Shown piece by piece: positions 1-30,155 of a stretch of DNA of 30,155 nucleotides. A program made the translations under genes and the position numbers. The DNA comes from a virus: IMG/VR virus record IMGVR_UViG_3300030104_004995, positions 1-30,155 of that record. One strand, given 5' to 3'. The notes beneath the pieces are model-generated. The model ran no database searches, had not been told where the DNA came from, and was given only the letters and a program-made list of their open reading frames with translations. Positions within the stretch are counted from its first letter, which is position 1. Each line of letters starts with the position of its first letter.

Positions 1-2130
1 ATTTATTCCAATATTACCACTAGCATTTATATACATTCTTGTATTATGAGTAGAGCCATCAGCAGTTGTTTGAAATGCTATTGTCCCCTCAGAAGAAGTA
101 CCACCTCTTGAAATCAGATTGGTAGTACCATCACTCATATTTAACTGGGCATATTGGTCTAGGGCATTTTGAGAACTACCACCTCTTGCAATCTTAATAC
201 CATCTGTAGCAGTACCTGCCCCTATTATAAATAAATTTGCATTTGTCGCTGTACCTGATGACTCAACTCCAATCATCATATTAGCATTACGAAACGAGTA
301 AATACCTGCACTAGTATAAAATTGCATTCCATTAGCATTATTGTAGCTATTAAAATATGCCCATCCATTGTCATCATAGCATCCAGTCAAAACATAATTA
401 TCACCAGAGCCGTGTATCTTTAATCTTTTATTTACTCCTTCAGAAGTTAATGGAGTACCACCCTGTATTAAGGCTCTTCCTTCGTCATCTATAGTAAGAC
501 CTGTATAGAGTTGATAAGCACTACCATTATGACCTTTTGTAATGAGACTTAAGTTTGTAGCATAAGCACCATCGTCTCCTGCTGTACATTTAACATATGC
601 ATTAGCACCATCGTGCCTTCTGTCAAATGTAAGTGAAACATCATTTCCTGCTGTGCCACTATCTTTGTGAATTATAAGACCAGTATTGACTCGTAAGCTA
701 GTACTGGTATCGTTCCCTGCTGTTCCTACCTGAAGACCATTAGTTGTGATTGCACCAGCAAAACTAACACTTCCATCGTGGTCAAATATGTGCTGGCTAC
801 TACCATCACTTAACTCAAATATTATGTCATCGCCAGCACTTGAGCCTTCGTGCTTTAATCTTAAACTACCACCAGTATTTTTTAATATGTATTGATTAGC
901 TGATGATTTATTCATTGATAAATTAGAAGCAAGCGTAAGAGCCCCTGCAAAAGTAGCAGTATTAAATTTTGAATTAGATTCTGGCTGTAAGTAATAGGAA
1001 TTATCTGCATTAAAATACAATGCTCCATTAGGTGATTTTCTTAAATCCCAATTCGCCCATTCTGCATCAAGGAACCCATAACCATTACCATCATAATACA
1101 GTTGGATTCCAAAATTGCCATTCATATCAGATATAAAAACACCTGCATACCCATCTGCAGAAGATTGGATCTCTAAGCCACCATTGTGCCCCATAAGTTT
1201 AGCTGAATTACCAGATGTATTAGTTTGTATATGACCAGCAAATGTAGCATTTTGGGAAGTGCCAAGATGTAATGCTTGTGTTGTGCTAGAGCCAGTATAA
1301 AAATATATTGCTTCATTATCTGAAAGGATCATTCTTACACCACCTGAACCTTTTAAATCTATCTGACCATCTGTAAATCCAAAGTAAGTTCCTGTATCTC
1401 CAACGTGCAGTATTTTATTAGTAATATTTAAACCATTTGTTGTTGTAGATCCAGTAACTGATAAATCATTTCCAATCCATAAATCAGCACTAGCAGACAA
1501 GTGCATTATTTTTGTTCCACCATCAATAGTTGCACTATCGTGCCACCATTCAAATGGATTAGTTGTTCCACCATTGGCATTTGAATCTGCAATAAAATGC
1601 ATAGTATCTGAATTGGTAGTAATTGCAGAATTAGTGCCACCTGCATTTATATTTAGATACGTTAATTCAAAAGTAGCGTTACTTCCATTTATTATAAGTT
1701 TATTTGTACCACTATCTCTAGCAATAAACCCTGCATCACCATCTGCAACAAGATAACCACTTGTGGAAAATACTTTTTCACCTGACTCAAAGTTTAATAC
1801 CTTTGAACCTAATGTTACATTACCAGCAAATGTAGCATCGTATGTGCTTGTGGCTGAAAATGTAAGGGCAGTTGCTCCACCACTTTGAATCCTTGTACCA
1901 GTCCCACTTTCTCCACCAAATACAGCATAGTTACTATTGTAAACTGCCATCCATTTGGTATCTCCATTGTACTTGCCAATGATCCCACCCCAATTATCAT
2001 CAGTAGGATTAATAATTAAAGATGAATTCTCCGTGCCACTATTGATAACCAATTGGCCTGACATTGTCCCACCAGAGCTATAGTCTGTAGACGCATCACC
2101 TGCCAGTAGAACTCGTTTCCAAGTAGCCAT
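1..2130 (-). CDS. tail fibre / tail-appendage protein, 3' end beyond window
   Basis: Reading the minus strand from the ATG at 2130 gives 710 codons with no stop down to base 1, so the gene runs off the left edge. It begins MATWKRVLLAGDAS and continues with Gly/Asn/Thr/Ser-rich, low-charge sequence. Short repeats of the type TFAGNVTLGS, FAG-NAT and GNDT recur every 40-60 residues, typical of beta-structured fibres or of phage proteins carrying repeated 'add layer, compare, display' segments. It shares its first five residues (MATWK) with the fibre-like protein encoded at 2463-3431, suggesting a common attachment segment. Its start overlaps the stop of the preceding gene as TAATG. It is the last visible gene of the late operon, where receptor-binding proteins are expected. 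Function is inferred from composition and position; no catalytic domain is visible. Confidence 0.75.
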   Translation of the reverse strand, partial: MATWKRVLLAGDASTDYSSGGTMSGQLVINSGTENSSLIINPTDDNWGGIIGKYNGDTKWMAVYNSNYAVFGGESGTGTRIQSGGATALTFSATSTYDATFAGNVTLGSKVLNFESGEKVFSTSGYLVADGDAGFIARDSGTNKLIINGSNATFELTYLNINAGGTNSAITTNSDTMHFIADSNANGGTTNPFEWWHDSATIDGGTKIMHLSASADLWIGNDLSVTGSTTTNGLNITNKILHVGDTGTYFGFTDGQIDLKGSGGVRMILSDNEAIYFYTGSSTTQALHLGTSQNATFAGHIQTNTSGNSAKLMGHNGGLEIQSSADGYAGVFISDMNGNFGIQLYYDGNGYGFLDAEWANWDLRKSPNGALYFNADNSYYLQPESNSKFNTATFAGALTLASNLSMNKSSANQYILKNTGGSLRLKHEGSSAGDDIIFELSDGSSQHIFDHDGSVSFAGAITTNGLQVGTAGNDTSTSLRVNTGLIIHKDSGTAGNDVSLTFDRRHDGANAYVKCTAGDDGAYATNLSLITKGHNGSAYQLYTGLTIDDEGRALIQGGTPLTSEGVNKRLKIHGSGDNYVLTGCYDDNGWAYFNSYNNANGMQFYTSAGIYSFRNANMMIGVESSGTATNANLFIIGAGTATDGIKIARGGSSQNALDQYAQLNMSDGTTNLISRGGTSSEGTIAFQTTADGSTHNTRMYINASGNIGIN

Positions 2131-2288
2131 TAGTTACCTGCTTCGTCTTTTGCTACTTGCTTTTCAAAAGCAGTGCTAAGTCGTTGTAATATCTTGGCTA
2201 CTCTTGGTGCGTCTTTGCCTTTAATACCCATAATTTCAATAGCTGTTTTTAAGATGTGTAATTCATCTGCTGATAGTTCAACTTTCAA
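2130..2288 (-). CDS. small helical protein, 52 aa, TTG start
   Basis: A TTG start preceded by AAGGA at good spacing opens a 52-residue frame beginning LKVELSADELHIL. It overlaps the last codons of the upstream gene and ends TAATG into the fibre gene. The protein is helical and charged (IMGIKGKDAPRVAKILQRL). Its layout resembles the neighbouring 61-residue protein (LLKLIMGSTFEGSELEIAHSVLTKI), so the two may be diverged copies or partners. Two small proteins placed directly before a large fibre gene could be fibre assembly chaperones; that is inference from position only. Confidence 0.6.
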   Translation of the reverse strand: MKVELSADELHILKTAIEIMGIKGKDAPRVAKILQRLSTAFEKQVAKDEAGN

Positions 2289-2463
2289 GGTTATCCTTAT
2301 GCATTTTTACAATTTTTGTTAATACAGAATGAGCTATCTCTAGCTCGCTTCCCTCAAAGGTAGAACCCATAATAAGCTTCAATAAAAAATCAGTATCCTT
2401 TACGGTTAATTTTTTAATTGGCTCATCACTTAATTGACTTAAGTCTGCAAATTTCTTTGTCAT
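2278..2463 (-). CDS. small helical protein of the tail region, 61 aa
   Basis: The frame starts MTKKFADLSQLSDEP, overlaps the stop of the fibre-like gene upstream (TAATG at 2463) and is overlapped by the next TTG-start gene. It is mostly helical, with a central hydrophobic stretch DFLLKLIMGSTFEG and a basic end. I do not recognise a family. Tight coupling on both sides supports it being a real gene of the tail operon, possibly an assembly helper working with the similar 52-residue protein downstream. Confidence 0.65.
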   Translation of the reverse strand: MTKKFADLSQLSDEPIKKLTVKDTDFLLKLIMGSTFEGSELEIAHSVLTKIVKMHKDNLES

Positions 2464-3431: not shown

Positions 3432-3442
3432 TTGTTACTCCT

Positions 3443-5244: not shown

Positions 5245-6561
5245 TTAAGCTGTTATCTTGAACAACTTATGCGATTCAATTAACTGTAATCCAAGTCCTT
5301 CATCAGACATATACTGATCTTTCACACCATCAAAAGCATTATCTTGCTTAATGTTAGCTTGATAGACCATAGGTCTGTACTGGGCGTGGAATAAGTTCTC
5401 GTCACTTACTACAACCATATACTTGTTATAAGGCCCACGTAACGCTGGAGTTGGTATCAACTGCAACATACCGTGAGGTGTTTCAAGTACTCTGTAGTTA
5501 AATCCGAGAGCATCACGTTTCATATCACCAATGTTAACTGTCCAACCTGAATTGGAAGCCATAACATTAGACCCACTAGCACTAGCTAGTTTTGACCAAT
5601 AACCTAAAGCACCAGCTCCACAGAAAGCACGTTTCACACCTGCTTCTGGGACATACTGAAATACTTTTTCCATATCATCTACAAAGTCGCCATAAGCATA
5701 GCTACTGGCAACTGTAAAGATATTTTGATCATCACCTGAAGATGCACCGTAATCTTCGATAGCAGGTATTAATCCGTAAGTTGTACGAACAATATTGCCA
5801 TCAGCATCAGTACGTCCATTATCAGCGAAAGAATCAGCAGTACCTGAAAGACCAGTTCCACCAATTCTCTTACCAAATAAGAACGCTTTTTCTTTTTGCA
5901 TTTTGTGCTCTTCAGCTTTCATTTTACGTAGCCTTGCAAGTTCACTTGACTCACCACGTAAAACAGAAGCCTCTAAAGTACCTGTAATCTGCAATGGTGT
6001 CTTAAAGATCTGAGTAGAATTCCATACTGTGGAAAGCTCATCACTCCAAGCATCTGGAGATGAAGAACCTTCACCACGTGCATTACCAATCACGATACAT
6101 ACATCGTTATCAGCAAGAGCTTGTGTTCCTGATTTTAGATGCTTCAGCGTAATTTCACCATTACTTGCAACTGCAGATACAAGAGCTACAGTTTTGTAAG
6201 TACTTTTTGCTGAATTCCATATTTCTACTTCTAGACCTACATAAGATGAATCTGCAGAACTAGCAAGTCCTACAATTCCATCAATAGGAATTCCTGGTAA
6301 CCCTGTGTCATTATTAGGTAGGGTTCCAGGTGTTCCTTTGTTTATTGAAAACTCTTGTTTAACCCAAGGATTGCGATGTTCAAACATTTTAAAAATAGGA
6401 TCTGGCACATCACGAGTTTCACGGTTAGAAACAAGAGTCGTAAATGGTGCTACGTCAGTCCAAAGTTCTTTAGTGACCTGTGGATCAACGTAGAAATCTC
6501 GTCTGTCTGTATACAGTACAGATGAGGCACCGCCATTATATAGCTGTTTTTCTGTTGCCAT
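5245..6561 (-). CDS. major capsid protein (HK97 fold, SU10/DUF5309-like)
   Basis: At 438 residues the length suits a major capsid protein, and it follows terminase, portal and scaffold genes. The N-terminal region (DPQVTKELWTDVAPFTTLVS) matches the start of phage capsid subunits. The segment KMKAEEHKMQKEKAFLFGKRIGG (about residues 215-237) is the lysine-rich 'EKAFLFG' helix region of the SU10/DUF5309-type capsid family, and the C-terminal domain carries ENLFHAQYRPMVYQANIKQDN. The start is clear: the strong leader GATTGGAGTCACAAAATG lies just upstream. A hairpin follows the gene. The product would form the icosahedral shell around the 279-residue scaffold. The capsid role is strong; the subfamily is from memory of motifs. 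Confidence 0.85.
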   Translation of the reverse strand: MATEKQLYNGGASSVLYTDRRDFYVDPQVTKELWTDVAPFTTLVSNRETRDVPDPIFKMFEHRNPWVKQEFSINKGTPGTLPNNDTGLPGIPIDGIVGLASSADSSYVGLEVEIWNSAKSTYKTVALVSAVASNGEITLKHLKSGTQALADNDVCIVIGNARGEGSSSPDAWSDELSTVWNSTQIFKTPLQITGTLEASVLRGESSELARLRKMKAEEHKMQKEKAFLFGKRIGGTGLSGTADSFADNGRTDADGNIVRTTYGLIPAIEDYGASSGDDQNIFTVASSYAYGDFVDDMEKVFQYVPEAGVKRAFCGAGALGYWSKLASASGSNVMASNSGWTVNIGDMKRDALGFNYRVLETPHGMLQLIPTPALRGPYNKYMVVVSDENLFHAQYRPMVYQANIKQDNAFDGVKDQYMSDEGLGLQLIESHKLFKITA

Positions 6562-7480: not shown

Positions 7481-8410
7481 TTATTTATAAGGGTCAAATA
7501 CTTCCCCACTTTCAAAATCATACTGTAGTGGATTTGTCATATTACTTAATTCATCTGTTCCCCACATTACTGTTTGTACAGGGTCATTAGCAGGATTGCC
7601 TATAGTTTCTTGTATGTTGTCAGTTTCAGACTTTACAATATTAAATGGATCCCATTTTTTAGGAGGAACAAATACTCTTGAGCTGTCAGTATGATCAGCA
7701 AGTTTAGCATCTCTATAAGTATAGTTAACTGGCTCCAAAGCTTCTCCAGTATCTTCAACGCCTTGTCCAAATTGACCTCTATAATTATCCATAGCTGATG
7801 CTGTTAATGGCCCCATCTTTCCATCTATTTTTAGCATATTTCCTTCTTTATCTCTAAAGCCTAGACTGTTTAATGTAGTTTGCATACTCTTAACGCCTTC
7901 AGCATTTAATTTTGATGGATCTTTCATCATACGATCTAACAACAGCCTTTGTTGAACGCCATCTAGATTACCCTTATCAACACTACTTGACATATTAGAT
8001 TCTGAATTAGATGCATCTACATACGTAGGATTAGCAAATCTATCCATTCCATAATCACCGTGTCTTCCTTGTGCCATTAAACCTTCCTGTCTTGCCATCT
8101 CATCAGGATCCATTGCCATTCCTTGTAATAATTTTTCTCCTTGTGGAGTTAGCATACCAGCATCTCTTTGAGCCATTGCTTGCTGTAATGGAGAACTTCC
8201 AAATGCTTGTCTACCTGCATTAGGATTAGTTACTACATTTTTAAATGCAGAGAATCTATCTCCCATATTTTCTCTCATACCTCCAAGCCTATCTCGTAAG
8301 CCACCTACAAATTGATTTACTTTTTGACGGCTATCTCCACTTGCTCTAGATTGATTCATCCTTGCTTGTCTAGCTCTTTCTTCCTGTATTTCTCTAAAAC
8401 GTGACATCAT
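7481..8410 (-). CDS. virion protein with peptidoglycan-binding-like domain, 309 aa
   Basis: The start (ATGATG) overlaps the portal stop. The first 130 residues are Arg/Gln/Met/Gly-rich and probably flexible. Residues about 170-212 (EGVKSMQTTLNSLGF ... IDGKMGPLTASAMDNYR) match the PG_binding_1 repeat: helix, 'LG', 'DG-x-x-G-x-x-T', helix. This domain usually anchors proteins to peptidoglycan or related glycans. The position between portal and scaffold suggests a head-internal or ejected protein that could engage the cell wall when DNA is delivered. No hydrolase motif is visible, so I infer binding and not cleavage. Confidence 0.6.
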   Translation of the reverse strand: MMSRFREIQEERARQARMNQSRASGDSRQKVNQFVGGLRDRLGGMRENMGDRFSAFKNVVTNPNAGRQAFGSSPLQQAMAQRDAGMLTPQGEKLLQGMAMDPDEMARQEGLMAQGRHGDYGMDRFANPTYVDASNSESNMSSSVDKGNLDGVQQRLLLDRMMKDPSKLNAEGVKSMQTTLNSLGFRDKEGNMLKIDGKMGPLTASAMDNYRGQFGQGVEDTGEALEPVNYTYRDAKLADHTDSSRVFVPPKKWDPFNIVKSETDNIQETIGNPANDPVQTVMWGTDELSNMTNPLQYDFESGEVFDPYK

Positions 8411-10617
8411 TCATCCTCTATGCTTAATAGTTCTTCATTCATCTGACGTTGCTTATTATCTGCTACTGGTTCTACCTGCTCTTTTGCAGTTTTCAACTCA
8501 TCTGCCAATCTAGTAGTATATAGCTTTTGTGCCATTTCCACTTTTGCTTCTGCCTTTGCCAGTTTCTTTTCAAACTCTTTGACTTCCACTCTTTTCCTAT
8601 CGTGTAATGATTCACGTTGTGCAGTTTGTAAATCGCCTTTGAGTTTCTTAATCTCATCTGCTTGAGCTTGCACCTGTCCCTGTAGCTGTTGCATTTGACC
8701 TGCTCTCTGAAGAACTCCTTCCATATCAGCAACGTCTGTTTGCTTCAATACTTCTGTTTGGTCAATTAGCCCTGCTTGGTGCAGTTGCATATAATATTCA
8801 AATCTTGCCCATCTGTTTGATGGTAGCGTGGATCCTGACATCACGATTACATCATACTTACCAATCGTAATATCATTGATCTTGCCCATATAATTCCCAA
8901 TATCATCATATATTGGAGAGTTGAGTACAACTTCTTTTGGCATATTATTGGGTTGCATCAATCTCAGTATTTTTTCATCTTTATAGACATATTGAATTAA
9001 CCCTACAATCACTCTTGCCATTTGGTTAATTCCTTCTTCAATATCATCTCTTTTTGATTTGATACGTCTTTGTCCATATTCATCCAAAGCCACCGTACCT
9101 TTAAAGGTTTGTGGAGATGAACCAACATCGCCTTGCATCATAGCATATATCCCTAAGATTCGCTCTATGTCTGCTTTGGCATCTGCTTCGTTTTTGTATA
9201 GCTCATTCGGTAAAGGGACAGGGCCAGCAACAATTGGAGTCCCTAGCTCTGGGTCGAACTCAATAACTGCTGTCCCAGCTCTTCCCCAGTCTTCTTCCAA
9301 TTGTTTTCTATTTATAGCACCACGAGGTATAAGGAGCTTTGTATTGGTTGAAGTAGATGCGTGTGCAATAATCAAAGAACGAATCTTATTGATATACTCT
9401 TGCAAACCTTTCACCAATCGTACATCGCTTAATGGATATGGATTTCTGTTCCATCCATTCATTATAGGTACAACTGGATATTCTTCAATTGGTAATACAA
9501 CTTTGAATAACTCTTCGTCACCAACGTGAACACATTGCATCACTTGGCATATCTCTATGTCGTTGACCATTATTTTTCCATCTTCGACTAGGTGTGCTTT
9601 TGTGATTATATCTATCTTTGTGGTGCTATTGGGTATGGATCCTACGTGCTCTTCACCTGCCATAGGGTGCTGTTGTCCTGTTTGAGGATCCATCATCATA
9701 TGGAAAGTGTCACCTTGCTTTTCGTGTACTTCCATATAATCTGCGACAGTTTTACTGTCTGTAAATATCTGCTCTCCTTGAGCATTGGTAATCATTACTG
9801 CAGGTTCTTTTATGTACTCATCAAATTCTTCTGCAGAAAGGATCTTTCTTTCATCTCGAAACGGATCATATACTTTATGATACGGTTGCCATACTTTGTA
9901 ATAACGCTCTATTAACTCTAATTCACGTTCTCCAGTAACAGAAACTCCATCCAATCTACGCTTTAACGTGACATCTTGTGATTCTTTGCCATACCGTGAA
10001 TCTGTTGGCATATTGATGTAACTAGTTTCTGTAGATTTTTTTATGATTTCTTCAAATTCAGGATACGCTTTAATCAATGCATCCTGTGAAACGACCTTTG
10101 CAACAATGATATTGCTTGCATCTCGACAGAATGGATCTTTGGATGAGGGATCAAAATACACTTCCAAAGGATCTAAGGATTTCATCTTAACCTCTCCTGA
10201 TCCAAAATCTGCCGTTGGGTCTACATATGCATACAGAACACCCATTCCCTTTACATAGTAATCATCTATAGCCTGTTTCAATTCTACATTCCCATTGGAA
10301 AGATCCCAGACAAATGCCATAATATCAGAGAACATACGTCCTACTCTGTTATCTGATGTTTCTCTACCTGTAGATTGAAATTTTGGTTTATTAGAAGTAA
10401 GCATAGCCTTTGCCTGCTCAACTGCAGAATAGGTTACGTTTACTACAATGGGTTGTTGGGAACGGTTTTTTAGAGCTGTTGCTTCAGAATCTGTCCATTG
10501 TTTCCCATTTCTGAATTCATTGTCCTCAACAGCTTGTTTTGCCCAGTTTTCACGTGCAGATGCGTATTCTCGTAGTAGATCTTGTGTGAGCTGGGTACTT
10601 TCTGTCTTTTTATGCAT
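8407..10617 (-). CDS. portal protein (P22-like)
   Basis: At 736 residues it has the length of P22-type portals (about 725). The N-terminal part (QDLLREYASARENWAKQAVEDNEFRNGKQW) and the segment PIVVNVTYSAVEQAKAMLTSNKPKF are typical of this family, as is the central LDPLEVYFDPSSKDPFCRDA and the 'SSPQTFKGTVALDEYGQRRIKSKRDDIEEGINQ' clip/crown region (motif cited by its core residues FKG and DDIEEG). The last 110 residues are a long coiled coil (QLQGQVQAQADEIKKLKG onward), like the barrel of P22 portals. It sits between large terminase and scaffold genes, as expected. The dodecameric ring docks terminase and passes DNA. No good Shine-Dalgarno sequence precedes the ATG. Dyad-rich DNA upstream (10618-10688) may hold a promoter. 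Confidence 0.85.
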   Translation of the reverse strand: MHKKTESTQLTQDLLREYASARENWAKQAVEDNEFRNGKQWTDSEATALKNRSQQPIVVNVTYSAVEQAKAMLTSNKPKFQSTGRETSDNRVGRMFSDIMAFVWDLSNGNVELKQAIDDYYVKGMGVLYAYVDPTADFGSGEVKMKSLDPLEVYFDPSSKDPFCRDASNIIVAKVVSQDALIKAYPEFEEIIKKSTETSYINMPTDSRYGKESQDVTLKRRLDGVSVTGERELELIERYYKVWQPYHKVYDPFRDERKILSAEEFDEYIKEPAVMITNAQGEQIFTDSKTVADYMEVHEKQGDTFHMMMDPQTGQQHPMAGEEHVGSIPNSTTKIDIITKAHLVEDGKIMVNDIEICQVMQCVHVGDEELFKVVLPIEEYPVVPIMNGWNRNPYPLSDVRLVKGLQEYINKIRSLIIAHASTSTNTKLLIPRGAINRKQLEEDWGRAGTAVIEFDPELGTPIVAGPVPLPNELYKNEADAKADIERILGIYAMMQGDVGSSPQTFKGTVALDEYGQRRIKSKRDDIEEGINQMARVIVGLIQYVYKDEKILRLMQPNNMPKEVVLNSPIYDDIGNYMGKINDITIGKYDVIVMSGSTLPSNRWARFEYYMQLHQAGLIDQTEVLKQTDVADMEGVLQRAGQMQQLQGQVQAQADEIKKLKGDLQTAQRESLHDRKRVEVKEFEKKLAKAEAKVEMAQKLYTTRLADELKTAKEQVEPVADNKQRQMNEELLSIEDE

Positions 10618-10688: not shown

Positions 10689-12161
10689 TTATGCAGTCTT
10701 CCAAGTATCTGTATTTTTACGGACTCTATCTATTCTCTTAGGTTTGATTTCGGCTGTATGGTTAGGACGATACATACCTTTCATTGCATAGTACATACCA
10801 TCTAAGAGGTCATCGTGTTTTCCTCTGGGGTATAATAACAGTTCATCTTTCAAATCAAGCATATCTTTCTTCATATGCATCTTGCCTTGTGCAAAATACG
10901 GCTCCATTGTTTCTAATCGTGAAGATTTAGAAGCTCTTGGAGACTCTTTTATCTCTAAGCCTGATATAAAGATGTTTTCTTCTTCACATCGTGTACGCAA
11001 ATACTCTCGTAGCATCTCCTGATAGCCAACAGACTCAATGCGTACCTTTGAGGGCTTATACATCTTAAAATACTGTATAATGCTCTCTGCTAATTTCATA
11101 GGCGTAGCTCGTTTACGGTAATACGGCAAAATGTACCTGTTATTATCTGCATCGACTGCGATTGGCATTACTACTGAATAATCTGCAGTCTTTTTTATTG
11201 AAGAAGCTGGATCTACGCCCATAAATATATTGACAGGAATTCTTGCTTCTTTCCCATCGGTTAAAAAATGTTGTCCTTCGTCATCTACTGTATAATCATA
11301 ATTGTGGTATTTAAAATAGCTTTCACTAAATAATTGGTCTTCATCTCCAATGATCTGACATAAATATTCTCTATAAAAGACAGATACTCTAGCAATAGAC
11401 TCTAATTCTCGTTTTTTCTTCTTTAATTTCTCAATTGGTTGCCATTCTTCCCATAAGGCAACGCCTTTATCCATATCAGGTGCAAAATGATGATTTACCC
11501 ATCCATCCATCTCTTTTAGTATTTCTACCATACACCTTTGATGCTGTGGTGTGCCTATAACGGCCAATTTGCCCTTCATAGGATCCAAACTCGGTACGGC
11601 TGACTGTAACAGCCACCTAAGATTAGATTCCATCGCCTCGGCCGTTTTTGTGTTGTTTTCATCTTCAGGGTCATCTACAATAATTAACGTAGGTCTTTGG
11701 CTACCTACTTTAATACCACGTAACTGTTGCCCTGTACCTTTGCATATGATCATTGTACCATCTTTTAGTTCAATCTCTGATTTCGCCCATTGTTTAGCAC
11801 TATGTTGCCCCCAGTATCCATATATCGCTCGTAATTGTGTAGAGTAGTCTAATGCATCCTTAATAGTCCCTAATAATTTAATAGCGTGGTCTTGTGTTCG
11901 TGATACCAGTACAATAAGCTTTGTTCCCTCAGAATGAAAGATATGATATAGTGGATATACGCCACCTACTATAGAAGACTTGGCGTGACCACGTGGAGCA
12001 ATGATATTTACCTGTTTATGGTTATCATTCATTAACGTCTTAGCTATCGTGTAATGAAATTCTGGAGAAGGTACAGCATACATCTGGGGATTAATGATTT
12101 TTCCAAATAAAATCATATTCTCTTTTAGTTTCTGCCGTAGTAATACAGTACTCTTGTCCAT
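10689..12161 (-). CDS. terL: terminase large subunit
   Basis: The 490-residue protein shows both terminase activities. The ATPase domain has a Walker A-like APRGHAKSS at residues 55-63, Walker B LIIVDDPED at about 159-167 and a coupling motif VIGTPQ at about 201-206. The nuclease domain has its acidic triad at GVDPAS (Asp317), RIESVG (Glu375) and HDDLLDG (Asp450-451). It pumps DNA through the portal and cuts the concatemer. It starts in a TAATG overlap with a tiny Cys-rich gene and follows the small-terminase candidate, the usual order. Length and motifs look intact. Confidence 0.92.
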   Translation of the reverse strand: MDKSTVLLRQKLKENMILFGKIINPQMYAVPSPEFHYTIAKTLMNDNHKQVNIIAPRGHAKSSIVGGVYPLYHIFHSEGTKLIVLVSRTQDHAIKLLGTIKDALDYSTQLRAIYGYWGQHSAKQWAKSEIELKDGTMIICKGTGQQLRGIKVGSQRPTLIIVDDPEDENNTKTAEAMESNLRWLLQSAVPSLDPMKGKLAVIGTPQHQRCMVEILKEMDGWVNHHFAPDMDKGVALWEEWQPIEKLKKKKRELESIARVSVFYREYLCQIIGDEDQLFSESYFKYHNYDYTVDDEGQHFLTDGKEARIPVNIFMGVDPASSIKKTADYSVVMPIAVDADNNRYILPYYRKRATPMKLAESIIQYFKMYKPSKVRIESVGYQEMLREYLRTRCEEENIFISGLEIKESPRASKSSRLETMEPYFAQGKMHMKKDMLDLKDELLLYPRGKHDDLLDGMYYAMKGMYRPNHTAEIKPKRIDRVRKNTDTWKTA

Positions 12162-15314: not shown

Positions 15315-15393
15315 GAGTGTGTAGCCCGATTGGTAAGGGAGCGGTCTGTAAAACCGTTTAACCATCAAGTAGGTTCGATTCCTACCACACTCA
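15315..15393 (+). tRNA. tRNA-Tyr (GTA)
   Basis: A full cloverleaf can be drawn. The acceptor stem is GAGTGTG/CACACTC, a perfect seven pairs, with discriminator A. The D arm CCC/GGG has loop GATTGGTAA, and the anticodon stem GCGGT/ACCGT has loop CTGTAAA, giving anticodon GTA. A variable region of 11 bases is followed by a T arm GTAGG-TTCGATT-CCTAC. The variable arm is shorter than in most bacterial tRNA-Tyr. CCA is not encoded. It lies in the small-gene region, well away from the integrase, so it is probably a phage-borne translation aid rather than the att site. Confidence 0.9.
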
Positions 15394-15422
15394 CAATTTC
15401 AAATAGGTAGCACCTATTAAAA

Positions 15423-19026: not shown

Positions 19027-20046
19027 ATGCCAGCAATGATTGATTCAATGTTTTATGTTGGGGAAACCCCTTGGCATAAACAAGGTAAAAAATTAGATAA
19101 CCCACCTACTGTAGAAGAGGCTATCAAAGAAGCAGGATTAGATTGGTATGTAAAGAAAATGCCTACATATGTTTCTAATCTAAATAATGATGAAGAATAC
19201 TATGGAAGAATTGCTTCTATACCTACTGGGCATTTCTATACAATGAGGATAGATAAACAAGGCAGTAGACGTAAGTTTACACCATTAGGCCCTGTATCTG
19301 AAAGATATGGAATATTACAGAACAAAGACGCATTTGAACCGTTTAATGTATTGTTGGATTATGGCTATACGCTAGAAACAGCAGGTGCAATAGACGAAGG
19401 CAGAAAAGTATGGATCTTAGCAAAAGCTCCTGAACATAGTATGGTAGGAGATGACAAGCTTGATAAATACGTTATGCTTTTTACATCTCACGATGGATCT
19501 GCAGGAAGTCAATTCAGACCTACTGCAATACGTGCTGTATGTCAAAATACAATTGACCTAGCATTAAAAGGTACAGAAAAGTTCTACTCACTAAAACACA
19601 CATCTAACATTACAGCTAGAGTGAAAGAACTCACAAAAAACCTTGATATAATGAAAGGCAATGTACGTGATGCAATAGGTGATATGAATAGAATGACAGA
19701 GTATAAAATAGGGCCAACTGAACTAGATATATATCTAGAGCTTTCTGTCCCCTATTTAAGGACAAGACATAAAGAAAGCATTCCAGAAAAAAACATATTT
19801 GTAAGGAATAATGCTAAGCCTGTATACGAAAAGATGGTCGATAATTTCAAAAATGGACGTGGGAATAAAGGTGAAACTTTATGGGACGCTTATAATGCAA
19901 TTACAGAATATTATACACACGATGCTAATTACAAAGACTGGGTAAAGTCTACGCAATTTGGCAAGCCGTATGATTATAAAGTAAGTGCATTACGAGTAGC
20001 ACAAACGATGGTACGACAAGCAAATACAACATTAATAACAGCTTAG
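19027..20046 (+). CDS. DUF932 / phage-plasmid-like protein (TIGR03299 type)
   Basis: The 339-residue protein starts MPAMIDSMFYVGETPWHKQGKKL, the characteristic 'W-H-x-x-G' opening of the DUF932 family found in phages and plasmids. It continues with the PVSERYGILQNKDAFEP, KVWILAKAP and SHDGSAGSQFRPTAIRAVCQNT segments typical of the family, where a conserved 'R-x-V-C-x-N-T' block occurs. The biochemical role is not known for certain; members lie in replication/recombination regions, as here, three genes before the primase-helicase. AAGGAGG precedes the ATG at good spacing. Confidence 0.85.
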   Translation: MPAMIDSMFYVGETPWHKQGKKLDNPPTVEEAIKEAGLDWYVKKMPTYVSNLNNDEEYYGRIASIPTGHFYTMRIDKQGSRRKFTPLGPVSERYGILQNKDAFEPFNVLLDYGYTLETAGAIDEGRKVWILAKAPEHSMVGDDKLDKYVMLFTSHDGSAGSQFRPTAIRAVCQNTIDLALKGTEKFYSLKHTSNITARVKELTKNLDIMKGNVRDAIGDMNRMTEYKIGPTELDIYLELSVPYLRTRHKESIPEKNIFVRNNAKPVYEKMVDNFKNGRGNKGETLWDAYNAITEYYTHDANYKDWVKSTQFGKPYDYKVSALRVAQTMVRQANTTLITA

Positions 20047-20180: not shown

Positions 20181-20834
20181 ATGACAAACGAACTACAAGG
20201 TTTGACAATTCATCAAAAGCTGAATTTTATTCAAACCAACCTCAAAGTAGAAAAAGGACATCGCAATAATTTTGGTAAGTACAATTACAGAAATTTAGCA
20301 GATATCTTTGAGGCTGTAAAACCTTTATTAAATGAAACTGGTTGCTGGTTAACAGTATCAGATGAAATGGTAAATATAGGTAACAGCAACTACATCAAAG
20401 CAATAGCCATATTTGGCGATCAAGATGGCACAGAAATCACTTGTGAGGGCTGGGCTAGAGAATCTGTATCTAAAAAAGGTATGGACGATAGTCAAATAAC
20501 TGGTGCTACATCATCATATGCAAGGAAATATGCCTGTAATGGGTTATTTGCTATTGACGATACCAAAGATGCTGACAGTATGGACAATACAGATCACATC
20601 TCTGAATTACAAGAAAATACACTTGGTACAGTAAAGACTGTTTCAGATGAAGAGATCAAACTAGAACGTCTATGTCGTGCAATAGAATTCAAAGGTACAG
20701 GCTTGCAATCTAAAATAAAAGATTGGCTAAAGACTGAACCATCTCAAACACAAATCCTTGAAAAGTATATCCAACTAAAGGATAAACAAGAAGGAATACG
20801 TAACAAAAATAAAAAACAAAAGGAGTCTAAATAA
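20181..20834 (+). CDS. erf: ERF-family single-strand annealing protein
   Basis: The start is set by GATTGGAGTCACAATG. Residues 32-50 (GKYNYRNLADIFEAVKPLL) and 104-132 (SQITGATSSYARKYACNGLFAIDDTKDAD) carry the two diagnostic ERF blocks, including 'G-x-Y-x-Y-R' and 'Q-x-x-GA-x-x-Y-x-R-K-Y'. The protein, 217 residues, would anneal complementary ssDNA for recombination and genome circularisation. A Lys-rich helical tail follows (KNKKQKESK). It is coupled (TAATG) to the probable ssDNA-binding gene, a common pairing in phages. Confidence 0.9.
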   Translation: MTNELQGLTIHQKLNFIQTNLKVEKGHRNNFGKYNYRNLADIFEAVKPLLNETGCWLTVSDEMVNIGNSNYIKAIAIFGDQDGTEITCEGWARESVSKKGMDDSQITGATSSYARKYACNGLFAIDDTKDADSMDNTDHISELQENTLGTVKTVSDEEIKLERLCRAIEFKGTGLQSKIKDWLKTEPSQTQILEKYIQLKDKQEGIRNKNKKQKESK

Positions 20835-21373: not shown

Positions 21374-21634
21374 ATGACCATATCAGTAATTATCAAAAAA
21401 TGGTTACTGAATCGTATGAATAGAGGAAACTATATCGTGAATTCAGTAGATATAGAGACTTCTCTAGTCAACTATGCTAAAGAGTACTGGGATGTAATAC
21501 ATACTCCCAGTACTTGGAGCAGAGGTTGGAGAACATTCAGACGTGAAGGTGAATACAGAGATATTGATATAGTCGATATCAGAGAAAAACAAACTAACAA
21601 AAGGTATAAAACGTGGCAACTAGGGATTGGATAG
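21374..21634 (+). CDS. hypothetical protein, 86 aa
   Basis: Starts directly after the previous stop. MTISVIIKKWLLNRMNRGNYIVNSVDIETSLVNYAKEYWDVIHTPSTWSRGWRTFRREG suggests a small helical, winged-helix-like domain with aromatic and Arg-rich turns. It overlaps the primase-helicase start by 22 bases, implying translational coupling and perhaps a replication role. Not recognised. Confidence 0.55.
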   Translation: MTISVIIKKWLLNRMNRGNYIVNSVDIETSLVNYAKEYWDVIHTPSTWSRGWRTFRREGEYRDIDIVDIREKQTNKRYKTWQLGIG

Positions 21635-23448
21635 TAGAATACGCTACTGGTTCAGTTTCTAATAGACAGCAGTTATGTACTATTGAAAAATGGCCTGAGA
21701 TACTTAAAGGTCTATTAAAGTACAGAAGTGAAATCTACAGATCTATGTTTTTATATGATAAAAGCATTATAGACTATGTAGAAGAAACTAAAAGTGTCAG
21801 TAAGTATGATGGTGAAAAATACATAGACACAATTGTACTGGACATAGACCCTACAGGAAATGTCAAGTTAATGGGCGATCTTGCCTTAGACCAAGTACTG
21901 GAATTAATTGATGACCTTAATGGAAAAGGCATTGGTAATGAAATAATTCAAGTATGGTTCTCTGGCAGAGGGTTTCATATACATATGCCTAACGTATATG
22001 GATTTGAACCAGCTCATAACCTTAACCAAATAGTACGTGCAAGTATTGCAAGAGATTTTGGGAATTATGTTGATCTAATATATGATGCTACAAGACTTAT
22101 TAGAGCACCTTATTCTCGAAATCTTAAAACAGGTTTATACAAAATACCACTTAGAATAGAAGAAATAGAAGATCTGTCTTATAATAATATTCAAGAAATA
22201 GCAAAAGACATAAGAACAGACTTTGCACACAAAAAACTAGAATATGATGGTATAGCTTTACTTAAACCTCAAGATGTAAGCAGGAAAAGTTCTCCTGAAG
22301 TACGCAAGATATTCATAGGCAAAAAAGCAGAAACATCAAACGTCATTACGTGTGGGCAACACATATACAACGCTGGAGAAGTCAAAGGACACAGACATCA
22401 TAATTTATTACGTCTTGTTAGCATTGCTATAAGACACTATGGTTATGATGCATCTGCAGTACACGGCATTGTTAAAGCTTATATGGATAAGTTTGATAAT
22501 CCATTGCCTAAAACAGAAGTAAGCAGAATTGTAGAAGACGCATATAAAGCAGGTGGTTATGCTTACGGATGTGAAGATGAAGTACTATCAAAATACTGCG
22601 ATCCTAAATGTTTTAAATACAAATGGAAGAACCTAGAAGAAAGCACAGATGTATTAAATGCAGATGATATGGTAAATCTTCTATTAGACTATGTAGAAAT
22701 AGACTTTAGTGATAAATCTTTTGATTTAAAACAGGTCTTTCCATTTATGCCTAACTCATATGTATTTAAAGCAGGAGATCTTGCAGTACTAACAGGAAAC
22801 ACCAAATTAGGTAAAACAGCATTTTTACAATATGTAGTATCGTGCATACCTAGTGTAAAAACACTATATATGTCACTAGAAGTAGATCAAGCAACTATGG
22901 CTAGACGCTTTACACAACAGGCTATGCTTAAGTCTAAAGATGATGTAATTCATTTATTAAAACAGAAAGACGCTTTAACGCTAGAAACACTCAAAAACAA
23001 AATGAAACATCTTGAACTTATTACTACTTCCCCTGACATATCTAAGTATGGAGATATGATACAACAACATAAACCTAAAATTGTTGTAGTAGACACAGTA
23101 GATATGGTTCCAGCACGTTTTGCTGGTACAGATTCCTTTAAAAAACAGGAACACGTATTTGAAACACTCAAGAAGATTGCCATCCAAGAGGATATAATTA
23201 TTCTTGCAGTAGTCCACATATCTAAGCAAGCACATTATGCCTTAAAAGAGGGACAGGAATTAGATGTCCATATGAGTAAAGGCTCAACTGCAGTCGCTCA
23301 AAAAGCTGACAAAGTACTAGCATTAGAACAGGTTTCTGAAGGTAGCAGAAAAAGACGAATCAGAGCTGTGGCATCACGTGATGATACAGGCTTTGAAATT
23401 GTATGCAATTACAACTGGGAGACATTCACTTTTGGAAAACTGAATTAG
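21613..23448 (+). CDS. primase-helicase fusion (AEP-like primase plus RecA/DnaB-type helicase)
   Basis: GTG start with AAAGG eight bases upstream; 611 residues. The N-terminal half carries archaeo-eukaryotic primase motifs: DIDP at 77-80 (catalytic DxD), SGRGFHIH at 117-124 and RLIRAPYSRN at 161-170. A Cys cluster (Cys320, Cys329, Cys333) could bind zinc or iron-sulphur. The C-terminal half has Walker A GNTKLGKT at 395-402, Walker B IVVVDTVD at 490-497 and the later 'HISKQAHY...SKGSTAVAQKAD' region of RecA-like replicative helicases. It would prime and unwind phage DNA. No DNA polymerase lies in this window, so the host polymerase may be recruited. The two-domain order is clear; hexamer formation is inferred. 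Confidence 0.85.
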   Translation: MATRDWIVEYATGSVSNRQQLCTIEKWPEILKGLLKYRSEIYRSMFLYDKSIIDYVEETKSVSKYDGEKYIDTIVLDIDPTGNVKLMGDLALDQVLELIDDLNGKGIGNEIIQVWFSGRGFHIHMPNVYGFEPAHNLNQIVRASIARDFGNYVDLIYDATRLIRAPYSRNLKTGLYKIPLRIEEIEDLSYNNIQEIAKDIRTDFAHKKLEYDGIALLKPQDVSRKSSPEVRKIFIGKKAETSNVITCGQHIYNAGEVKGHRHHNLLRLVSIAIRHYGYDASAVHGIVKAYMDKFDNPLPKTEVSRIVEDAYKAGGYAYGCEDEVLSKYCDPKCFKYKWKNLEESTDVLNADDMVNLLLDYVEIDFSDKSFDLKQVFPFMPNSYVFKAGDLAVLTGNTKLGKTAFLQYVVSCIPSVKTLYMSLEVDQATMARRFTQQAMLKSKDDVIHLLKQKDALTLETLKNKMKHLELITTSPDISKYGDMIQQHKPKIVVVDTVDMVPARFAGTDSFKKQEHVFETLKKIAIQEDIIILAVVHISKQAHYALKEGQELDVHMSKGSTAVAQKADKVLALEQVSEGSRKRRIRAVASRDDTGFEIVCNYNWETFTFGKLN

Positions 23449-24066: not shown

Positions 24067-24236
24067 TTAATCTCGTAGACGTAAATAAAAAAGTAACAAA
24101 ACTAGATCACGTTATTGATGAGCTAAATGCATTAAAAGATGATTTATATCGTTCATCTGAAAGAAATGAAGACAGAATAAATTGGCTTATAGAACAATGT
24201 TTAAAAGCTAAATATGATGTAAAGGAAGAAGAATGA
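24063..24236 (+). CDS. small coiled-coil protein, 57 aa
   Basis: ATGA-coupled to the gene before, with GAGGAAGAAG as Shine-Dalgarno sequence; an earlier in-frame ATG at 24000 lies within that gene and is not favoured. MINLVDVNKKVTKLDHVIDELNALKDDLYRS is a charged heptad-like helix. ATGA-coupled to the resolvase-like gene, so possibly a partner of it. Function unknown. Confidence 0.6.
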   Translation: MINLVDVNKKVTKLDHVIDELNALKDDLYRSSERNEDRINWLIEQCLKAKYDVKEEE

Positions 24237-24565
24237 GTGGCAAAGCTCCCAAACAGAAAGGTAATAGAATTGAACGAGAATGTGTAAACCTAGCTAAAGA
24301 CTATGGGTTTGTATCCAAACGTGCTTGGGGATCTGATGGCAGATCACTAGGCTGGCACGAAGAAGTAGATATGATCATAGAATGCAACAATATGGAAAAT
24401 GTAAATCCAATGAAATTCCAAGTAAAAGGTCGCAAAGCTATAGCAGATTATCTAAAACCGTGTGAACACGTGTTTGGACAAATTCTCAAAGAAGACCGTA
24501 AAGAAGCACTAGTTACTATACGGTACAAAGACTTGTTAGATCTCTTTAAGAGAATAACAGGATAA
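24233..24565 (+). CDS. Holliday junction resolvase-like nuclease (Hjc/PD-(D/E)XK type)
   Basis: In 110 residues it shows the archaeal-Hjc-type layout: KGNRIERECVNLAKDYGF with Glu14 in the first helix, a basic/Ser-Gly loop (KRAWGSDGRSLG), Asp46 in EEVDMII and the FQVKGRK strand with Gln63-x-Lys65, where the family often has Glu/Gln-x-Lys. Such enzymes cut four-way junctions. It sits at the end of the replication block, ATGA-coupled to the coiled-coil gene. It is a second PD-(D/E)XK-like gene besides the one at 13258. Confidence 0.75.
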   Translation: MSGKAPKQKGNRIERECVNLAKDYGFVSKRAWGSDGRSLGWHEEVDMIIECNNMENVNPMKFQVKGRKAIADYLKPCEHVFGQILKEDRKEALVTIRYKDLLDLFKRITG

Positions 24566-25217: not shown

Positions 25218-25222
25218 ATCGA

Positions 25223-26053: not shown

Positions 26054-26054
26054 T

Positions 26055-26402: not shown

Positions 26403-26517
26403 AATCATTATCACCGTAAAAAATGATAAGCAAAAACAAAGAATTCTAGATGTATTAGAATATGCAGAACAAGAAGGAACTCTAGATTTTACATTTGGAG
26501 TAAGGAGTGAATGGTAA
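26386..26517 (+). CDS. hypothetical protein, 43 aa
   Basis: ATG inside the last codons of the previous gene, behind AAAAAGGAATACAAA. MTQNVEIIITVKNDKQKQRILDVLEYAEQEGTLDFTFGVRSEW has a beta-alpha-beta outline. TAATG overlap with the next gene. Unknown. Confidence 0.55.
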   Translation: MTQNVEIIITVKNDKQKQRILDVLEYAEQEGTLDFTFGVRSEW

Positions 26518-26687: not shown

Positions 26688-26815
26688 TCCTTGCACCTGA
26701 TTGGATGTTCTACATAGAACAAGTATCTAAAGCTGTACTGTATACTGGAATTGGTTTTGGAGCGTTTACTTTAGCAACATTTAAATGGATTGAATTCATA
26801 TTCAATACAAAATAA
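26684..26815 (+). CDS. single-pass membrane protein, 43 aa, last early gene
   Basis: AGGAGG seven bases before the ATG. MILAPDWMFYIEQVSKAVLYTGIGFGAFTLATFKWIEFIFNTK has one hydrophobic segment (VLYTGIGFGAFTLATF). It closes the early operon before a bidirectional terminator. Holin-like in size, but unproven. Confidence 0.6.
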   Translation: MILAPDWMFYIEQVSKAVLYTGIGFGAFTLATFKWIEFIFNTK

Positions 26816-26817
26816 TT

Positions 26818-26885
26818 GGGTTAAGCAAAAACTGTTTGAATTGCAGTATTTGTTCAGTCGAATAACAAAACAACCTGCTTAGCCC
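26818..26885. terminator. bidirectional hairpin between early operon and integrase
   Basis: GGGTTAAGCA pairs with TGCTTAGCCC (one G-T) around a 48-base loop with inner complementarity. It lies between two genes transcribed towards each other, where a shared terminator is expected. Confidence 0.55.
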
Positions 26886-26892
26886 ATAAACT

Positions 26893-27795
26893 TTATAGTT
26901 TAAACTCCTCAATATCGGTTATAAGTAAGTGGGCATAGTTTCTCTCTGTAATAGAGATTTTACTATGCCCTAATAATTTTGACACCGTATATATAGGCAC
27001 GCCATTCTTGATCAAGTTAGAACCAAACGTCCTGCGTAGGTCGTGGAATCTCCCATTGGGAATCTGCAACCTGCGTAGGTTTTTTTTAAAATTATGAGAA
27101 ACATAATCTAAGCTATAATTCCAAGGGGTCTTTGCCTCTTGGAATATTTTTTTTGCCTGATGGTTAATCTTTACAAGACGCATTCCTGACTTCCCTGACA
27201 TTTCTATATAGTCATCTTGCAATGTCTCATAATTAATATTGAGCAACTCCCCTCTTCTTGCACCTGTATAATATGCAAAATTAACAAACAATTTAAACTG
27301 TTCATCTTCTGTGCAGTTTAGTATCTGTACCATTTCAATATCATTGAACACTCTTTTACGTGCTTCCGTCATCGTATTGCCAGTAAACATTTTTTTGTTT
27401 GTCTCAATACCACGTTTTAATCCCCAGTTAATCACCGAGTTTACTCTGTTCTTATATGTATTAACTGTACTGACACTCTTATTTGGTATCCCTTTTTCTA
27501 AATAGCACATTAAGGTATTGGTATTTGTGGCTCTTGTTTTATCAGTCCAGTTATGATCGAACTCCAAATACTCTGCAACTAATGAATGAAACGGCAAGTA
27601 TCTTCTTCCAGTTTCAGGATTGTAATATGATTGCAAAGCTTTGTATTCTAAATGATCCCTAAGCTTATTAGCTACCTTAATGGATTTTGTACCAGTAGAC
27701 AATTGTATTGTTCTACCTTGTATCATTTTTCTGTAATAAATGTAACCGTTAGACCCAACGGCTAGGTTCTTTTTTAGCGATGTTTTGACTGCCAT
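26893..27795 (-). CDS. int: tyrosine recombinase (phage integrase)
   Basis: I place the start at the ATG at 27795 (300 residues, MAVKTSLKKN); the longer frame from a TTG at 27864 would run through the tRNA-like core and is unlikely. Catalytic residues are all visible: Arg180 in TGARRGELL, Lys202 in GKSG, His251 and Arg254 in FHDLRRTFGS, His277 in KLLGHSKISIT and Tyr287 in RNYAHL. Residues 12-50 look like an arm-binding domain and 65-150 like the SAM-like core-binding domain. Two copies of TTTGACTGCC, the probable arm-type site, overlap the start codon, so integrase may repress its own gene. It would integrate the phage at a tRNA-Gly gene. Confidence 0.92.
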   Translation of the reverse strand: MAVKTSLKKNLAVGSNGYIYYRKMIQGRTIQLSTGTKSIKVANKLRDHLEYKALQSYYNPETGRRYLPFHSLVAEYLEFDHNWTDKTRATNTNTLMCYLEKGIPNKSVSTVNTYKNRVNSVINWGLKRGIETNKKMFTGNTMTEARKRVFNDIEMVQILNCTEDEQFKLFVNFAYYTGARRGELLNINYETLQDDYIEMSGKSGMRLVKINHQAKKIFQEAKTPWNYSLDYVSHNFKKNLRRLQIPNGRFHDLRRTFGSNLIKNGVPIYTVSKLLGHSKISITERNYAHLLITDIEEFKL

Positions 27796-27950
27796 TTGAC
27801 TGCCTATAATGTTATAATTCACTTTTGTCCTCAAGGAAATTAAAACATTCAAGCACGTTGGCAACGTGATGCTCTACCAGCTGAGCTACTCTCGCATATT
27901 TAAACTTCCTTGCTAGAATTTAACAAAAATTTGACTGCGATGTGACTGCC
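27784..27950. other. attP region with paired arm-type repeats and tRNA-derived core
   Basis: TTTGACTGCC occurs at 27784-27793 and 27795-27804. TTTGACTGCG and TGTGACTGCC occur at 27930-27939 and 27941-27950, each pair 11 bp apart. Between them is the core, CACGTTGGCAACGTG (27854-27868), an inverted repeat around the tRNA-Gly anticodon loop. Two-sided arms flanking a core are expected of an uncut attP. Confidence 0.75.
27854..27895 (-). tRNA. 5' fragment of tRNA-Gly(GCC), att identity segment
   Basis: The minus strand from 27895 reads a tRNA 5' half: acceptor strand GCGAGAG, D arm GTAGCTCAGCTGGTAGAGC, then anticodon arm CACG-TTGCCAA-CGTG with anticodon GCC. Similarity stops right after the anticodon stem; no variable arm, T arm or 3' acceptor strand follows, so it is not a functional tRNA on its own. 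It lies just upstream of int and between arm repeats, as an attP core. Confidence 0.85.
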
Positions 27951-27953
27951 AAT

Positions 27954-30155
27954 TTAGCTTAGCATTTCTTCAATAGCTTCAGACTGCTCGCTTCTTCTCT
28001 TTGCTCTTTCAATTCTAGATTGGATTTGATTATAGGGGAATCTTACTAATATTTCAGGACTTCTTTCAAGGCCTCTTCCAATTCGATCATCAGTTAGTTG
28101 CACACCTTGTCTTGCTAATCGTCCAAATGGAAACAATGTATAGGCTGTATAGTTACTAAATGTTTCCCAATCTCCTGATAATATCTGTCCCATTGCTTCA
28201 GGGACACGTGCAATAGGAGGCTTTAAAAGATTAGCAGGGCCAAGTGGACTACCAAAGAAAGCCATATCTCTTTCTTTCTTGTCTCCGTATGTCCAATCAG
28301 CTAATGCTTGAATCCAATCATAAGGAGGTGCTAGTGAAGTATCAAAGATGCTAAACATAAATGCACCACCTAATGCCATCATAAACATATCTGTTAAGAA
28401 TAAATCTTTTGCTCTGTTATATTCATCAGAGCCTTCCTTAAACCCATAGAGTTTAGCTTGTCTGTAAAACTCTCTTCTAGTTCTAATAGAATTCCAAGCA
28501 AACAGCTTGAACCTTGTTAGTACCTTACCTACTGCAGTACGCATAAACATAGGACGAAAACTATTTTGGTATAAGAACTGTGTATTCTCTACGCCTTTCA
28601 TTGCCATTTCGTGTATAAATGGATCTCTTATAGATAACTCTCTACCTTGAGGCCCAAACTTTTCCATAGCTTGCAGGGCGTGTGCCATATAACTATTCAC
28701 ACGATTCACTTTTTCTGAATGTCTCATAAAAAATGAACCATACTTTAACATTATATCTTTTACGCCATATCTACTAACAACTTCTCCAACGCTTTCTTCT
28801 CTCTTACCTTTCTTATCTTTCATCGCTCTAGTAATATCACGTTGGAAATTCTTTAAGCTTGTACCTGCTTTTTTCAGATTCAGTTTTAATCCTTCATTGT
28901 ATTCAAACTCGTGCTGAATAAAGTTGTCTATAATGCCCTGCTCTTCCATCCATTTAGAAAGCTCTTTTCTGTTACGCACAAACTTACCATCTAAAGTTTT
29001 AATTACAGGTGTTCCATTCTCTGTAAGCAACCTGTCATATACTTTTTTCTTACTAAAAACATTAAGAAAATTTCTGATACCTGCACTCGCTCCAGTCATC
29101 ATATTCCCACTAAAAATATTAGTAGCATATGTGCCTGTATTAGCCAGTAAAGTCATCAACTCATACTGAGCTTCCATTCTACCGAAATCGTGGATTTTAC
29201 GGCTAAAATACTCCTTCCTAGCATTAGCATCTAATGGTGCTCTACTCATTATATTCTTGACGAAAGGAACACTTGTAAATTTGTTACTCTGCCACATCTT
29301 TTCATAAAGATTTACCATATTCTGATCTGACATTAAGTAGAACAAATTACGCTTATCTTTTAGATGCAATGGATCTATGCCACGATTGACTTCTCGTATA
29401 ATTCTTTCTGGGAAATATGTCTGGTGTCCTAAGACTGTTTGCAAATGAAGTTTTACATAATCAGCCCACACATCATTATAATTTTTATATCTTCTTTTCT
29501 CCATAGGTATAACAGTATCCTGTGTAGGATCATCTGTTCTACGAGTCTTACGCCTGTTTATTTTATATAGCTTTTCAAAATGCTCTTTTTCTTTTTGAGG
29601 AACCTCACGTGACTTAAGCTGTTCCTTCATCTTACGTATCTGTCTATCACCGTGTATACCAGCCATTGTGCTGTAATATCCACGTACCACCTTATCTATA
29701 TAGTCATTAAAGATAGCGTGTGATTTGTCATAGCCTTTTAAATTTGCAGTTCGTGCTTCTAGTGGCCCAATTCTTGTTTTTAATCCTAAGTCTGATAATG
29801 TTTTATCGAGAACTGATTCATTAATTTCTCCTAAATCTGCAATGTCTTTCATTGTAAACATTTCTGCAGAGAAATTCCCAACATTCTCCATATGTTGTAA
29901 GTATCTCTTTTGAGCTTGTTTTGCTAATTCTCTAGCTTTCCCTTCACTTACTTTACCTTTTAACTGCTCATATACTTCTTGATATTTTGCTTTACTAGCA
30001 CGATCAACAGACTTTGCAAACTCTGCTCTTGCCATTTCAGTCTTGTTGAAATTCATATGAGGAATGTATTCTACAGGATCAATAAACCCTACACCTAAGA
30101 ACGGATTCTTTTTACGATGTTCTAGAATACGTTTATTATAATTCTTTTTCCCTAG
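27954..30155 (-). CDS. large probable virion/ejection protein, 5' end beyond window
   Basis: The frame is open from the window edge: 33 codons before the ATG at 30056 read on without a stop and look like protein (LEHRKKNPFLGVGFIDPVEY), so the visible 733 residues are the C-terminal part of a larger protein. It is basic, Lys/Arg- and Tyr-rich and mostly helical, with a hydrophobic segment near the end (LFLTDMFMMALGGAFMFSIF) followed by a Pro-rich stretch and a charged tail. This resembles the long polyvalent or ejected internal proteins of podoviruses that enter the host with the DNA. It ends in a TAA just before the att arm repeats. Exact family not certain. Confidence 0.6.
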   Translation of the reverse strand, partial: LGKKNYNKRILEHRKKNPFLGVGFIDPVEYIPHMNFNKTEMARAEFAKSVDRASKAKYQEVYEQLKGKVSEGKARELAKQAQKRYLQHMENVGNFSAEMFTMKDIADLGEINESVLDKTLSDLGLKTRIGPLEARTANLKGYDKSHAIFNDYIDKVVRGYYSTMAGIHGDRQIRKMKEQLKSREVPQKEKEHFEKLYKINRRKTRRTDDPTQDTVIPMEKRRYKNYNDVWADYVKLHLQTVLGHQTYFPERIIREVNRGIDPLHLKDKRNLFYLMSDQNMVNLYEKMWQSNKFTSVPFVKNIMSRAPLDANARKEYFSRKIHDFGRMEAQYELMTLLANTGTYATNIFSGNMMTGASAGIRNFLNVFSKKKVYDRLLTENGTPVIKTLDGKFVRNRKELSKWMEEQGIIDNFIQHEFEYNEGLKLNLKKAGTSLKNFQRDITRAMKDKKGKREESVGEVVSRYGVKDIMLKYGSFFMRHSEKVNRVNSYMAHALQAMEKFGPQGRELSIRDPFIHEMAMKGVENTQFLYQNSFRPMFMRTAVGKVLTRFKLFAWNSIRTRREFYRQAKLYGFKEGSDEYNRAKDLFLTDMFMMALGGAFMFSIFDTSLAPPYDWIQALADWTYGDKKERDMAFFGSPLGPANLLKPPIARVPEAMGQILSGDWETFSNYTAYTLFPFGRLARQGVQLTDDRIGRGLERSPEILVRFPYNQIQSRIERAKRRSEQSEAIEEMLS

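Follow-up and report, generated by a model that had tools for sequence, protein, structure and literature searches.

Gene content of the phage record and its missing words

We analysed a 30,155-nucleotide stretch of viral DNA (the window), which comprises bases 1-30155 of the 45,423-bp viral record IMGVR_UViG_3300030104_004995 and from which the palindromic tetramer CATG is completely missing. The record is a scaffold from a metagenome, interrupted once by a gap of 10 N at 30156-30165, directly 3' of the window, and the window represents about two thirds of the phage. Judged by its predicted proteins, the record is a tailed phage, an uncultivated bacterial virus. The minus strand encodes a major capsid protein (SU10_MCP; 5245..6561; PF17236, 6.4e-21), a portal protein (P22_portal; 8407..10617; PF16510, 2.5e-60) that was used as the query for relatives and found them at 78-91% identity, a large terminase (10689..12161; PF17289, 7.1e-09) that was used for the tree, and a tyrosine integrase (26893..27864; PF00589, 1.4e-17; phrog_1, 4.2e-38). 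The plus strand carries a tRNA-Tyr (GTA) gene (15315..15394; ARAGORN; Rfam RF00005, 52.7 bits) and genes for a DUF932 protein (19027..20046; PF06067, 2.9e-42), an ERF single-strand annealing protein (20181..20834; PF04404, 8e-36), a primase-helicase (21613..23448; PF13481 and PF03796, both above cut-off) and a RusA-like Holliday junction resolvase (24233..24565; phrog_244, 1.5e-07). Beyond the window the record encodes a metallophosphoesterase, an M15 peptidase and very large proteins of 1,014 and at least 2,150 amino acids (aa). The tyrosine integrase suggests that the phage is probably temperate. A stretch of about 70 bases between the integrase and a small open reading frame (ORF), at 26810-26890, has complementary ends (gggttaagca ... 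tgcttagccc) and is a possible terminator or attachment site. The tRNA-Tyr gene is flanked up- and downstream by the short repeated segments ggctctctttaattataa and ggctcggttctctttaattataa.

The first-pass annotation of the window had reported that CATG is absent where about a hundred copies would be expected by chance, and a full count of tetramers confirmed this. CATG occurred 0 times against 124 expected from a maximal-order Markov model using tri- and dinucleotide counts (z = -14), or 99.5 expected from base composition, and it was the most depleted of all 256 tetramers by a wide margin. The rest of the record past the gap, where CATG at near-expected frequency would have spoken against the claim, also contained none (45 expected), giving 0 against a Markov expectation of 170 across the whole record. 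To separate this from codon usage, codons were permuted within each gene among positions encoding the same amino acid (1,000 permutations, 32.7 kb of coding sequence). The permutations contained a mean of 67.1 CATG (standard deviation 6.0, minimum 50) as compared to the observed 0. The codon bias noticed at first reading held throughout: His codons before G were CAC in 52 cases and CAT in none, while before A, C or T they were CAT in 110 cases and CAC in 37, and the nine His codons quoted as examples all proved to be CACG, no more than 3 bases from where they had been placed. None of 290 internal Met codons was preceded by C. CATG is therefore under-represented beyond base, dinucleotide and codon effects.

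CATG was not the only missing word. The first-pass annotation had stated that other palindromes are present, which was correct for the five it named (GATC, GTAC, TCGA, AGCT and TGCA), but GCGC, CCGG and CGCG were all at zero in the window, and this second layer of missing words, which also includes GCNGC, GGWCC, CASTG and CCWGG, had been overlooked. Counts are given from here on as observed/expected. Across the whole record GCNGC was absent (GCWGC 0/56), as was GGWCC (0/22), and CASTG (2/49) and CCWGG (2/42) were nearly absent. CCCG, CCGC and their complements each occurred at most once in the record. Codon shuffles agreed in direction for these other words. GATC, GTAC, AGCT, CTAG and TGCA were near or above expectation. 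The missing words are mostly symmetric or degenerate-symmetric, of the kind recognised by Type II restriction enzymes, and in all about eight site classes have been purged together from a 45-kb genome.

Replacement of CATG and turnover of avoided sites among relatives

To determine how CATG was lost, five genes were aligned to those of five close relatives that are 79% identical in DNA. The alignments provided 83 orthologous positions at which a relative has CATG, drawn from five related phages and not all independent. This phage kept CATG at 0 of the 83, while AGCT, CTAG, GATC, TGCA and GTAC of the relatives were kept at 29-53% in the same comparison. The replacement was CACG at 34 positions and TATG at 27, with few others, and 63 of the 83 replacements left the amino acids unchanged. 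These data bear on a purely mutational origin of the loss, in which the host methylates the C of CATG and deamination to T then erodes the word without selection on the phage. The 27 TATG replacements are C to T changes at position 1, as such decay would produce. However, the commonest replacement, CACG, is a T to C change that deamination of methylcytosine cannot make, and CATA, the other deamination product, was not found among the replacements. The one-step neighbours of CATG were raised in the phage, CGTG/CACG most of all, and decay would not arrive at exactly zero. On this replacement spectrum we reject 5-methylcytosine deamination as the cause and consider mutational loss extremely improbable; because the commonest change is one that deamination cannot make, selection against the site rather than mutation bias is a good explanation for the loss of CATG.

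Searches with the portal and terminase recovered about 85 loci from viral contigs, for which Markov expectations are rough where contigs are short. Among 86 loci of at least 4 kb, CATG was at zero only in this phage, the median was 0.82 of expectation, and the CATG-free runs of viral relatives reached 7.0 kb at most. Sisters with 89-91% identical portal or terminase had normal CATG, so that the loss is not a property of the protein set; it spans the whole 45.4-kb record and is confined to this lineage. A nucleotide search of sequenced phages gave no match, the terminase found only distant kin among them (below 60% identity), and no closer phages came up when the 700-aa protein, the primase or the integrase served as query. 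Literature searches returned no paper describing this phage clade or its site loss.

The relatives have lost other sites. On the terminase tree the nearest phages (L001, L002 and L026; terminase 89-90% identical) also lacked GCWGC, CASTG and CCWGG where length permitted the test, and their CATG was normal. Other branches lacked GGCC or any GATC (for example 0/53 in L012 and 0/43 in L050), and the branch L054-L056 showed partial CATG loss, with 31/102 over 35.6 kb in the L055 record. The minimum number of changes on the tree was 1 for CATG, 4 for GATC, 5 for GGCC, 4 for GGWCC, 10 for CASTG, 3 for GCWGC and 2 for CCWGG, the smaller counts being noisy owing to short contigs. A wider set recovered through a tail-region protein included phages with GATC, AGCT or CTAG at zero. 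Relatives have part of the list in common with this phage, but some are without GATC or GGCC instead. The avoided set is therefore not constant, and in this clade it consists of a stable core and a part that turns over. Several single contigs were also recorded. The close kin L047, L051, L050 and L053 are at different stages of GATC loss (7/54, 8/58, 0/43 and 0/8), and the residual GATC in L047 and L051 is scattered along the contig without clustering. Among the phages sharing the tail-region protein, L105-L112, L114, L115 and L118-L123 have no GATC against about 22-58 expected in each, L100 has AGCT 0/40 and ACGT 0/11, and L116 has CTAG 0/23.

This turnover suggests a broader reading, in which the avoided-site set serves as a readable record of host restriction in this uncultivated clade, divided into core and accessory sites; we judge the evidence for and against it to be evenly balanced. 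The proposed core would be CCWGG, CCGG and CGCG and the accessory set CATG, GATC, GGCC, GCWGC, CASTG and GGWCC, an assignment that has in our judgment an even chance of being right. That the accessory sites come and go among phages whose DNA is still about 73-80% identical is put forward with the same middling confidence.

The loss of several sites in one genome also bears on a possible role for the phage itself. A phage-encoded nuclease cutting CATG could destroy host DNA, and a CATG-free genome would make a protecting methyltransferase needless. Many ORFs of the early region match no known family, so a new nuclease family is conceivable. Such an enzyme would nevertheless leave about seven other missing sites in the same genome unexplained, as well as the loss of GATC or GGCC in relatives. 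No methyltransferase or restriction gene or domain was found among the scanned ORFs of the record, a scan that covered part of the small ORFs, and four restriction-modification (R-M) proteins used as probes, including those for two CATG-type R-M systems, had no homologue in the record. We consider a phage nuclease very unlikely.

CATG-poor Flavobacteriales genomes and a candidate cassette

Host signals were sought through the phage proteins and the tRNA. The portal had no match in a search of bacterial genomes. The terminase had only three matches at useful similarity in bacterial assemblies, all distant: a Flavobacteriales metagenome-assembled genome (MAG) at 68%, which is the nearest host-like match, a Bacteroidetes MAG at 50% and a Peregrinibacteria MAG at 50%. 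In the Bacteroidetes MAG the contig that holds the phage genes is 142 kb long and also has genes for TonB-dependent receptors, an arrangement that looks like a prophage. Kinship points weakly to a host in Bacteroidota. A host search with the tRNA-Tyr gave only a 75% match in one genome, and for this reason no attachment site was assigned. In L089, a phage contig binned in a Flavobacteriales MAG, one gene encodes a radical SAM protein resembling spore photoproduct lyase (PF20903, 7.3e-23).

We searched 296 genomes of Flavobacteriales, the order of the 68% terminase match. Some bacteria of this order have CATG at only 0.1-0.3 of expectation in their genomes, which raises the possibility that the phage simply follows the word composition of a CATG-poor host, for example by recombination with host or prophage DNA. 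The depletion in these bacteria is partial, however, whereas the 45 kb of the phage contain no CATG at all, and the raised one-step neighbours of CATG are as expected if the exact site alone is purged. Host depletion is itself usually ascribed to the same R-M systems, and we give this explanation almost no weight.

The ICEA/NlaIII family (PF05315) was found in 1 of the 296 genomes, G026, where the gene adjoins a C5-cytosine methyltransferase and not an adenine one (L127-L133). The N6_N4 methylase family (PF01555) was above cut-off among the CATG-poor genomes in G026 only. The DNA of G026 is poor in CATG (31/358) and GATC (12/259), with GCGC strongly depleted too. As GATC is normal in the phage and depleted in G026, this genome is unlikely to be the host.

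To pick further CATG-poor genomes, CATGNCATG was counted per genome, and sampled DNA confirmed low CATG in G099 (13/99), G137 (12/100), G152 (18/96), G190 (13/97) and G083 (14/45). G083, G099, G137 and G152 share a two-gene cassette in which a 332-333-aa D12 adenine methyltransferase adjoins a 204-aa protein (L152:1369-2985; in G137 at G137:C3:402032-403645; homologues in G083, G099, G123, G152 and G244 at loci L153-L155 and L162-L174). Close homologues of both proteins were found in 5 of the 296 genomes (G083, G099, G123, G137 and G152), all low in CATGNCATG. A count of at most 1 CATGNCATG per Mb was seen in 5 of 5 close carriers as compared to 1 of 118 other genomes of at least 2.5 Mb (Fisher p 3e-8, or 1.7e-7 including the distant carrier G244, a statistic that ignores shared ancestry). 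In the carrier G123 a 20-kb sample was only mildly reduced in CATG (31/53) although its whole-genome CATGNCATG count was low.

The cassette methyltransferase matched PF02086 (D12; 1e-57) and PADLOC MTase_II (2.3e-137), and its phage homologues, 37-51% identical, are annotated as 'ulcer associated adenine specific DNA methyltransferase'. We take this name to refer to the hpyIM lineage; hpyIM methylates CATG (PMC4450513; PMC13340068). The 204-aa partner had no Pfam or PADLOC family match. Its alignment contains a conserved VDF...FDxK stretch that by eye resembles the PD-(D/E)xK nuclease motif. Among solved structures none was related to the ICEA protein, to the D12 methyltransferase or to the 204-aa partner. 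Together these features make the cassette a candidate for a CATG R-M system, whose endonuclease would be of an unclassified kind. An agent able to exert the selection is thus likely to be present in the order that is weakly indicated for the host, which is a statement about the order and not a demonstration that the agent acted on this phage.

Probable restriction-site avoidance and comparison with known systems

We hold with high confidence that the sites were purged from this phage because Type II R-M systems of its hosts, including one specific for CATG, selected against them. The hosts would carry, or would recently have carried, Type II enzymes cutting unmethylated CATG and several other short symmetric sites, so that every CATG would raise the chance of incoming phage DNA being cut. 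Because of this risk, mutations removing a site would have had an advantage. Most of them would have been synonymous, as with CAT to CAC before G or C to T before ATG, and they would have accumulated until no site remained, leaving a genome that would escape cutting for want of targets. Cleavage, the enzyme performing it and the host of that enzyme are all inferred here. That the selection came from a CATG-cutting restriction system had already been proposed at first reading and is the best-supported explanation, as the word is palindromic, its loss is total, genome-wide and specific to this phage, the routes of loss were largely synonymous, and further sites are missing here and, in parallel, in relatives. 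The accompanying proposal that the missing word is a clue to the host fared less well. The word is only a partial clue, one that would suit any host having a CATG-specific R-M system; the weakly indicated order does include genomes poor in CATG.

Several observations weigh against selection by host R-M systems or against the part given to the cassette. No R-M system is tied to this phage by a proven host. The phage encodes an integrase, and site elimination is reported to be less frequent in temperate phages (PMC6286503). The association between cassette and low CATG is uncorrected for shared ancestry, and the distant cassette carrier G244 is not CATG-poor. Conversely, neither the cassette nor the ICEA family was detected in the CATG-poor genome G190 (L144, L145), where a different CATG system may be present or a former one may have been lost.

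Avoidance of restriction sites by phages has long been known and is a textbook escape from host DNA-cutting enzymes, and this phage is an extreme new case of it. As avoidance itself is known, the greater interest lies in the turnover and the cassette. The case is unusual in how many sites have been purged together, in that the phage bears an integrase, and in the differences in purged sites between sisters. Sisters with CATG untouched and cousins without GATC or GGCC form a natural series for following the speed and order in which sites are shed, and for asking whether integrase-bearing phages shed them. Restriction specificity could possibly link uncultivated phages to their hosts. If the avoided-site set is indeed a readable record, viral contigs could reveal which R-M systems unknown hosts possess, and bacteria with matching systems could then be sought, the hpyIM-like cassette being one example of such a link. 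In this way the study of a phage has brought to light, in Flavobacteriales, a cassette that is a candidate CATG R-M system and whose partner protein is unclassified.

NlaIII of Neisseria lactamica and IceA1/hpyIM of Helicobacter pylori are CATG-specific R-M systems (PMC13340068, PMC4450513), and they recognise the very palindrome missing from this phage (PMC13340068). Unlike in NlaIII and IceA1, the 204-aa partner in the cassette has no family match and is not placed in the ICEA/NlaIII family, and the specificity of the cassette for CATG is only inferred; NlaIII, IceA1/hpyIM and cassette genes are all missing from the phage. The HF1-group haloviruses resemble the present clade in having symmetric tetramers at zero that differ between members, with CTAG and GATC at zero and AGCT in one member, but these viruses are archaeal and their CATG is only reduced to 0.24-0.44 of expectation (PMC7230728). 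Among double-stranded DNA phages, elimination (below 0.1 of expectation) has been found in 7.1% of pairs of Type II site and phage, and in fewer for temperate phages (Rusinov et al. 2018, PMC6286503). The present phage is like these orthodox cases of Type II avoidance in that short symmetric sites are eliminated genome-wide, and unlike the usual ones in that about eight site classes have been purged together, in a phage that bears an integrase.

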